Position numbers and translations under genes: made by a program. Shown here piece after piece: positions 42,862-43,428 of a stretch of DNA of 64,000 bases. This DNA comes from Luteitalea sp. TBR-22 (lineage in GTDB: Bacteria; Acidobacteriota; Vicinamibacteria; Vicinamibacterales; Vicinamibacteraceae). Every line of letters begins with the position of its first letter. The stretch's first letter is position 1. The stretch spans positions 124,001 through 188,000 of the forward strand of contig NZ_AP024452.1 of assembly GCF_016865485.1 (NCBI RefSeq). The letters run 5' to 3'. The notes beneath the pieces were generated by a model that saw only the letters and a list, made by a program, of their open reading frames with translations, was not told the DNA's origin and did no database searches.

Positions 42862-43428
42862 ATGACCTGGATCAAGGTGGTGCCGTTCGACGACGACGAG
42901 GCCCTGCAGCGGGCGCGCGATGCGCAGCGGCACCTCTATCCCATCGAGTACGCCACGCCCACGCACCCGCACCACGCGCAGACCGAGGGGATCGTCGCGT
43001 CGCACTCGCTGTTCCCCGACGTGCTGTACCACGCGTTCTCGGCATTCGGCGCGCTGATGTCGCCCGACCTGCCGCTGAGCCGCCGGCAGCACGAGATGAT
43101 CACCACCGTCGTCTCGGCCACCAACCGGTGCCAGTATTGACTGGAGTCGCACGCAGAGTTTCTGCGTAGGGTGACGCTGGACGACGAGTTCGTCGAGGCA
43201 CTGAAGCGGGACTTCAGGTCGGTGCCGCTGTCCGATCAGGATCGCGTGATGCTCGAGTACGTCGAGCAGATCACGCGTGATGCGACACGGATCTCGCCGG
43301 CCTTCCACGACCGGCTGCGCGCGGTGGGGTTCGACGACCGCGGGATCCTGCAGATCACGCTGATCGCCTCGTGGTTCAACTACATCAACCGCGTCGCCGA
43401 CGCGCTAGGCGTCGGCCGCGAGGGCTGA
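42862..43428 (+). CDS. Candidate selenoprotein: AhpD/CMD-family peroxidase-related protein with C-x-x-Sec
   Basis: One continuous frame runs 42862-43428 apart from TGA at 43138-43140. Reading that TGA as selenocysteine gives 188 residues with Sec93 in T-N-R-C90-Q-Y-U93-L-E-S-H97. This is the C-x-x-C-x-x-x-H site of AhpD-like enzymes with the second Cys replaced by Sec. Before it, [18 protein letters not shown] is the conserved helix. After it, [20 protein letters not shown], then [20 protein letters not shown] and NRVADALG complete the peroxidase-related (TIGR01926-like) family to its normal length. A SECIS-like hairpin follows the TGA. A CGAGGAG ribosome binding site precedes the ATG. Probable role: thiol/selenol-dependent peroxide reduction. 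The sel genes are not in this window. Confidence 0.85.
43138..43175 (+). promoter_or_regulatory. UGA-Sec codon and bacterial SECIS-like stem-loop
   Basis: After TGA (43138-43140), ACGCAGA (43151-43157) pairs perfectly with TCTGCGT (43161-43167) around a GTT loop (43158-43160). The loop begins 18 nt after the TGA and has G first, within the reported bacterial SECIS limits of 16-37 nt and an early loop G. A lower GTC/GAC pairing (43146-43148 with 43173-43175) may extend it. The codons TTT, CGT and AGG here are unusual for this GC-rich genome, as expected if RNA structure constrains them. Confidence 0.75.

Follow-up and report, generated by a model that had tools for sequence, protein, structure and literature searches.

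An in-frame UGA codon very probably read as selenocysteine in an AhpD-like gene of Luteitalea sp. TBR-22

AhpD-like selenoproteins with a C-x-x-U motif (U, selenocysteine, Sec) have been catalogued since 2005, when 27 sequences of COG2128 were described from the Sargasso Sea (PMC1088965). They were reported again in 2006, in a study whose table also contains four selenoproteins of Acidobacteria in three families (PMC1794560), and the GOS marine survey of 2008 counted 299 Sec and 902 Cys forms (PMC2398784); reviews place them under COG2128 and TIGR01926 (PMC9312934, PMC13188914). As far as the excerpts of these publications go, the described proteins share with the one analyzed here the TIGR01926 domain family, the C-x-x-U motif, and a hairpin after the UGA whose small loop contains a G. 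An earlier note on this locus had proposed a candidate new selenoprotein; the gene is indeed a new member, but because the family has been known since 2005 we regard it as a well-supported addition rather than as a founding case. The subgroup to which it belongs is not described for Acidobacteriota in the excerpts of PMC1794560 and PMC12013277. Our literature search retrieved no biochemical study of a Sec-containing AhpD, and among the matches listed for TIGR01926 or 'peroxidase-related' there was no selenoprotein paper beyond PMC13188914.

The window, i.e. the whole stretch of 64,000 nucleotides that was analyzed, corresponds to bases 124001-188000 of the TBR-22 genome, which consists of a single contig of 6,468,984 bp. 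The features discussed below are:

42848..42853, + strand: probable ribosome binding site GAGGAG, 8 nt upstream of the ATG (found by eye, consensus match only)
42862..43428, + strand: gene of a putative AhpD-like selenoprotein with C-x-x-U motif, TIGR01926 (peroxid_rel) family, 188 residues (translation, family matches, locus conservation)
43093..43095, + strand: codon of Glu78, 12 residues before Cys90, invariant in the 38 rows of alignment A1
43129..43131, + strand: codon of Cys90, probable resolving partner in C-x-x-U (TGC or TGT in 109 of 110 loci)
43138..43140, + strand: UGA very probably read as selenocysteine, Sec93 (translation and conservation across loci)
43150..43152, + strand: codon of His97, invariant in the 38 rows of A1
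43151..43167, + strand: bacterial SECIS-like hairpin, 7-bp stem ACGCAGA/TCTGCGT with loop GTT (codon freezing, stem pairing)

Translation of 42862-43428 gives a single frame whose sole internal stop is the TGA at 43138-43140 (residue 93), as had been claimed from the sequence of the window; the terminal codon is a TGA as well. The residues around the internal TGA read C90-Q-Y-U93-L-E-S-H97, which puts the TGA at the second position of C-x-x-[C/U]-x-x-x-H, where the second Cys of the motif would be expected, and the C-x-x-U followed by the family histidine is the pattern of AhpD-like selenoproteins (COG2128/TIGR01926). The assignment to the AhpD/CMD family made in the earlier note holds: the 188-residue protein scores 37.6 bits with Pfam CMD (PF02627, cut-off 23) and 104.2 bits with the NCBIfam family TIGR01926 'peroxidase-related enzyme' (cut-off 81.8). 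It stays below the cut-offs of NF041238 (AhpD_rel_CFYUT, 54 vs 175 bits), NF053654 (YciW-related (seleno)protein, 41.8 vs 310 bits) and the classical AhpD family TIGR00777 (22.7 vs 191.95 bits), and it is not among the matches of NF041047 (GSU3128 family), which recognizes one of the 38 members of A1. NF041238, NF053654 and NF041047 are likewise AhpD-related families whose names mark the inclusion of selenoproteins.

An AlphaFold model, in which Cys was modelled in place of Sec, is all-helical (pLDDT 92.7, pTM 0.89) and finds its best PDB matches among AhpD-like proteins (6k40, 3c1l, 2pfx, 2prr and 2oyo) at a TM of about 0.8 (0.84 for 6k40_A, 0.80 for 3c1l_E, 0.82 for 2pfx_A). These five proteins, of which 6k40 is from Deinococcus radiodurans, belong also to the same sequence family as the window protein; the aligned sequences of 2pfx, 3c1l and 6k40 carry C-x-Y-C, whereas the window protein would have Sec in place of the second Cys. 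Mycobacterium tuberculosis AhpD (1knc, 1gu9), which has its second Cys at this place too, is a weak structural match to the model (TM 0.4-0.5, E about 0.05-0.2). Its residues Glu118, Cys130, Cys133 and His137 show the same spacing as Glu78, Cys90, Sec93 and His97 of the window protein. Across A1, Glu78, residue 93 and His97 are invariant and Cys90 is nearly so.

Conservation of the UGA codon was analyzed in 396 genomes of the phylum (E<=1e-15; stop classes counted by hand). There were 113 matching places in 93 genomes, and TGA was the only kind of internal stop at 98 of these places; one further place contained TGA together with TAA, and 14 were stop-free. Close relatives, 60-99% identical along most of their length or all of it, were found at 29 places in 28 genomes, 28 of them with TGA and one without a stop. 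From a scan of species-genome contigs the best 80 of 236 loci were kept (65-86% identity), some of which possibly derive from the same genomes as loci of the phylum search. In total, 110 loci (L001 and L023-L131) were examined: 106 close TGA loci including the window itself (L001), L052 (a duplicate of L024 from one stretch of contig), L040 as the Cys form, and the distant loci L050 and L051. At 40-99% identity, residue 93 corresponds to a TGA codon in 109 of these loci and to TGC in L040, no other stop occurs inside the aligned stretch of any of them, and codon 90 encodes Cys in all 109 TGA loci. According to the titles of the locus records, nearly all of which are metagenome-assembled genomes, they come from Gemmatimonadota, Latescibacterota, Zixiibacteriota, KSB1, Planctomycetota and Betaproteobacteria besides Acidobacteriota. 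As sampled, Sec thus appears to be nearly universal in the subgroup of the window protein (109 of 110 loci), in contrast to the 299 Sec and 902 Cys forms of the GOS survey (PMC2398784). One genome (G173) holds two close copies, both with TGA (G173:C14:6629-7192 and G173:C41:8383-8937). In another, G318, only the C-terminal part of a close relative was found (L174, G318:C17:70156-70374, about residues 116-188, 64% identity), with no Sec half beside it; G318 possesses selB and tRNA-Sec, and L174 represents either a remnant or pseudogene or a misassembly.

A second, broader group of AhpD-like proteins, about 32-46% identical to the window protein, is present in Acidobacteriota (L136-L173, L175 and others). 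The 41 distant loci examined have TGA at the same codon and remodelled hairpins, but their TGA is not independent evidence, because 39 of them were chosen for being marked as TGA. Judged from these sequences, Sec use in the AhpD-like family looks common in Acidobacteriota. The subgroup of the window protein differs from the distant paralogues in A1 by 11 extra residues (19-29), which are missing from the latter except for L150 (L147 is partial).

The earlier note had also pointed to a 7-bp stem with a GTT loop at the right distance from the TGA. This hairpin, ACGCAGA-GTT-TCTGCGT, spans 11-27 nt after the TGA (43151-43167) with the loop G at 18 nt, and thereby has the features of a bacterial SECIS element, namely a hairpin just 3' of the UGA whose small apical loop contains a G; it is conserved, and TGA plus hairpin in exactly this form occurs once in the TBR-22 genome, at this gene. 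Codon use was compared in 101 distinct close sequences from 106 loci, leaving out L040 and L052. Codons +4 to +9 are near-monomorphic (CAC in 100/101, GCA in 97/101, GAG in 101/101, TTT in 100/101, CTG in 100/101, and CGT in 94 of the 100 sequences with Arg), even though the encoded amino acids have two to six codons. Among equally conserved residues, Arg +10 is encoded by CGC (38), CGG (27), CGA (16) and AGG (12) in 99 sequences, and four different codons are in use for Thr +12 and likewise for Val -9. Since codons +4 to +9 are frozen while equally conserved neighbours vary, the constraint acts on the RNA as well as on the protein, and it starts and stops with the hairpin.

Pairing of the stem was tested in 112 distinct sequences, 71 close and 41 distant, with registers slid by 1-3 nt as controls. 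For the stem in its named register, 98.6% of cells are paired in the close set, where it hardly varies, 79.8% in the distant set and 91.7% overall, compared to 22-61% for the slid registers over all 112. Cells changed on both sides number 32 in all 112 sequences (4-21 in slid registers) and 10 in the distant set (3-9), while additional pair types are no more frequent than in the controls (distant set, 4 vs 3-6; all 112, 7 vs 4-8); the narrow difference in the distant set and the lack of extra pair types make covariation a modest support. Of the 146 loci with CTN at codon +8, 108 have C-G at pair 14-24 and 25 have G-C, a switch in which an Ala/Gly replacement goes together with a synonymous change of Leu. 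As it mostly follows the split between close and distant loci (25 G-C and 3 C-G among the distant ones), it may represent few events. In the remaining 13 of the 146 loci this pair is not formed, but eight of these (L139, L140, L141, L160, L162, L165, L166, L171) can fold into a 5-8 bp hairpin displaced by 1-2 nt. The other five of the 13 (L146, L159, L161, L163, L168), all among the 41 distant paralogues, have a weak hairpin of at most 4 bp at the expected place. At offset 18, 105 of the 112 sequences have G and 7 have C. Being so strongly fixed, the hairpin would be a good model for SelB-SECIS recognition in Acidobacteriota.

Profile searches of the TBR-22 genome identified selB (C1:3736730-3738598, 344.6 bits), selA (C1:4591636-4593015, 489 bits) and selD (C1:6457993-6458916, 336.2 bits), all over their cut-offs, and a tRNA-Sec gene (C1:5775755-5775846, 65.3 bits), which ARAGORN also calls tRNA-SeC with anticodon tca. 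The selD gene itself (locus L132, G000:C1:6457993-6458916) contains one in-frame TGA near the N-terminus (MKRLTDYAACAGUASK), at what we take to be the usual Cys/Sec site of SelD. TBR-22 SelD is thus likely a selenoprotein, and since its frame also carries a TGA, Sec is apparently not confined to a single protein of this genome. A text search of the accessible text of the TBR-22 genome paper (PMC8852301) found no word beginning with 'selen'. Across the phylum, selB was detected in 255 of the 396 genomes (E<=1e-60), and comparison by eye with the list of TGA genes showed it in all 27 genomes holding a close TGA gene; the chance of this would be about 7 in a million for independent genomes, which these are not.

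The exception at residue 93 fits into this pattern. L040 (G014:C125:5491-6015) is a close relative with Thr at position 90 and Cys at position 93 (T-x-x-C) and without a hairpin at the SECIS position. Its genome, G014, is 99% complete and of the same order as the window genome; it has no selB match at E<=1e-60, and its only tRNA-Sec match over the threshold scores 47.1 bits against 47 and was classed as tRNA-Ser by ARAGORN. A 38-protein tree places L040 together with the window protein and L023 (support 97/87, bootstrap not fully settled) inside an otherwise Sec-containing close group. These sequences are most simply explained if Sec disappeared from a lineage in which the Sec machinery was lost, likely through a replacement of Sec by Cys in which the first Cys was lost too. 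The locus thus amounts to a clean natural experiment, in which close orthologues combine Sec with SelB and an intact SECIS and one Cys lineage has neither a selB match nor the SECIS.

From the conservation of the UGA, the Sec machinery, the constrained hairpin, the co-occurrence with selB and the exception L040, we conclude that the UGA at 43138-43140 is very probably (about 97%) read as selenocysteine in an AhpD-type active site, and that a gene seemingly interrupted by a stop codon is intact with near certainty. While frame, codon conservation, machinery and constrained hairpin can be read directly from the DNA, it is the insertion of Sec itself that we infer. The findings named in the earlier note as speaking against Sec, a genome without selB and tRNA-Sec or close relatives with scattered stops or frameshifts, were both looked for: the genome contains the complete set of genes, and the close relatives have no other stop, the remnant in G318 consisting of a 3' part only. 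A nonsense mutation in a former C-x-x-C protein, or a sequencing error, would also break the frame 42862-43428, and G318 does hold a 5'-truncated remnant of a related gene; however, a decaying gene is hardly reconcilable with 109 of 110 loci sharing this TGA and no other stop, and with close relatives that align over nearly the whole length at 60-86% identity, and this conservation in effect refutes a pseudogene, which we consider exceedingly improbable.

Equally far-fetched is a split gene, encoding a 92-residue N-terminal protein that ends at the TGA and a separate C-terminal protein starting at GTG 43171. An ORF from this GTG exists in the ORF list, but no properly spaced ribosome binding site was seen upstream of it by eye, in agreement with the earlier note, fold and active site span the TGA, and the hairpin sits between the two halves at the position of a SECIS element. 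Alternatively, a near-cognate or suppressor tRNA might decode the UGA as Cys, Trp or some other amino acid. Three genomes that have distant TGA paralogues and no selB match at E<=1e-60 would be compatible with such readthrough and count against a perfect fit between TGA gene and selB: G277 (97% complete) and G080 (75%), both with tRNA-Sec, and G266 (72%), whose best tRNA candidate is a tRNA-Ser. Yet a constrained hairpin resembling bacterial SECIS elements lies downstream of the codon, each of the 27 genomes with a close TGA copy encodes selB, and the close Cys form occurs in a genome without a selB match, which makes decoding as another residue very unlikely.

With UGA read as selenocysteine, SelB carrying Sec-tRNA(UCA) would bind the mRNA hairpin just 3' of the UGA, Sec would be inserted, and the complete protein of 188 residues would be made, presumably an AhpD/CMD-fold thiol-redox protein with the active site C90-x-x-U93-x-x-x-H97. 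Sec93 would be the attacking and Cys90 the resolving residue: helped by His97 and Glu78, Sec93 may attack peroxide or another oxidant, and Cys90 may then form a selenenylsulfide that would be reduced by a cellular thiol reductant. 'Peroxidase' is the name of the family, and such an activity of the window protein is presumed. Taken together, the subgroup might represent an undescribed AhpD-like clade in which Sec is ancestral and near-obligatory, the SECIS is frozen almost letter for letter across several phyla, and Cys appears only after the loss of SelB, with the first Cys then lost as well (T-x-x-C), a joint reading that we offer tentatively and consider somewhat doubtful. If it applies, the T-x-x-C enzyme would have changed its chemistry, which is more than a simple exchange of selenium for sulfur.

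No relatives were found among viral contigs with a single-protein query, which reaches close relatives only. The plasmid collection contains 153 matching records, all below 60% identity; the 15 listed among them are 26-38% identical, and 14 of these are annotated as 'peroxidase-related enzyme' and one record is unannotated. In the window, the long ORFs 41389-42627 and 43436-44605, which we take as the neighbouring genes, are located on the opposite strand, and the selenoprotein gene therefore probably stands alone. Promoter and terminator scans of 42600-43500 yielded nothing, nor did ARAGORN and Rfam (gathering thresholds) over the 64-kb window. In a crude scan of flanking regions that used all ORFs including shadow frames, the flanking ORFs of the window gene had counterparts beside no more than 3 of 80 loci, and two further groups of flanking ORFs recurred, in 24 and 17 of the 80 loci. 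Standard annotation likely truncates genes of this kind or calls them pseudogenes, in TBR-22 as well as in its relatives. When the window was scanned for TGA-bridged frames rich in third-position GC, 16 places were obtained, the selenoprotein gene among them; on inspection by eye, eight of the other fifteen looked like adjacent genes, shadow frames or run-on frames. Elsewhere in the window, an ORF of 264 residues (38051-38845, - strand) contains STFK and YGN motifs and presumably encodes a class D beta-lactamase-type protein.
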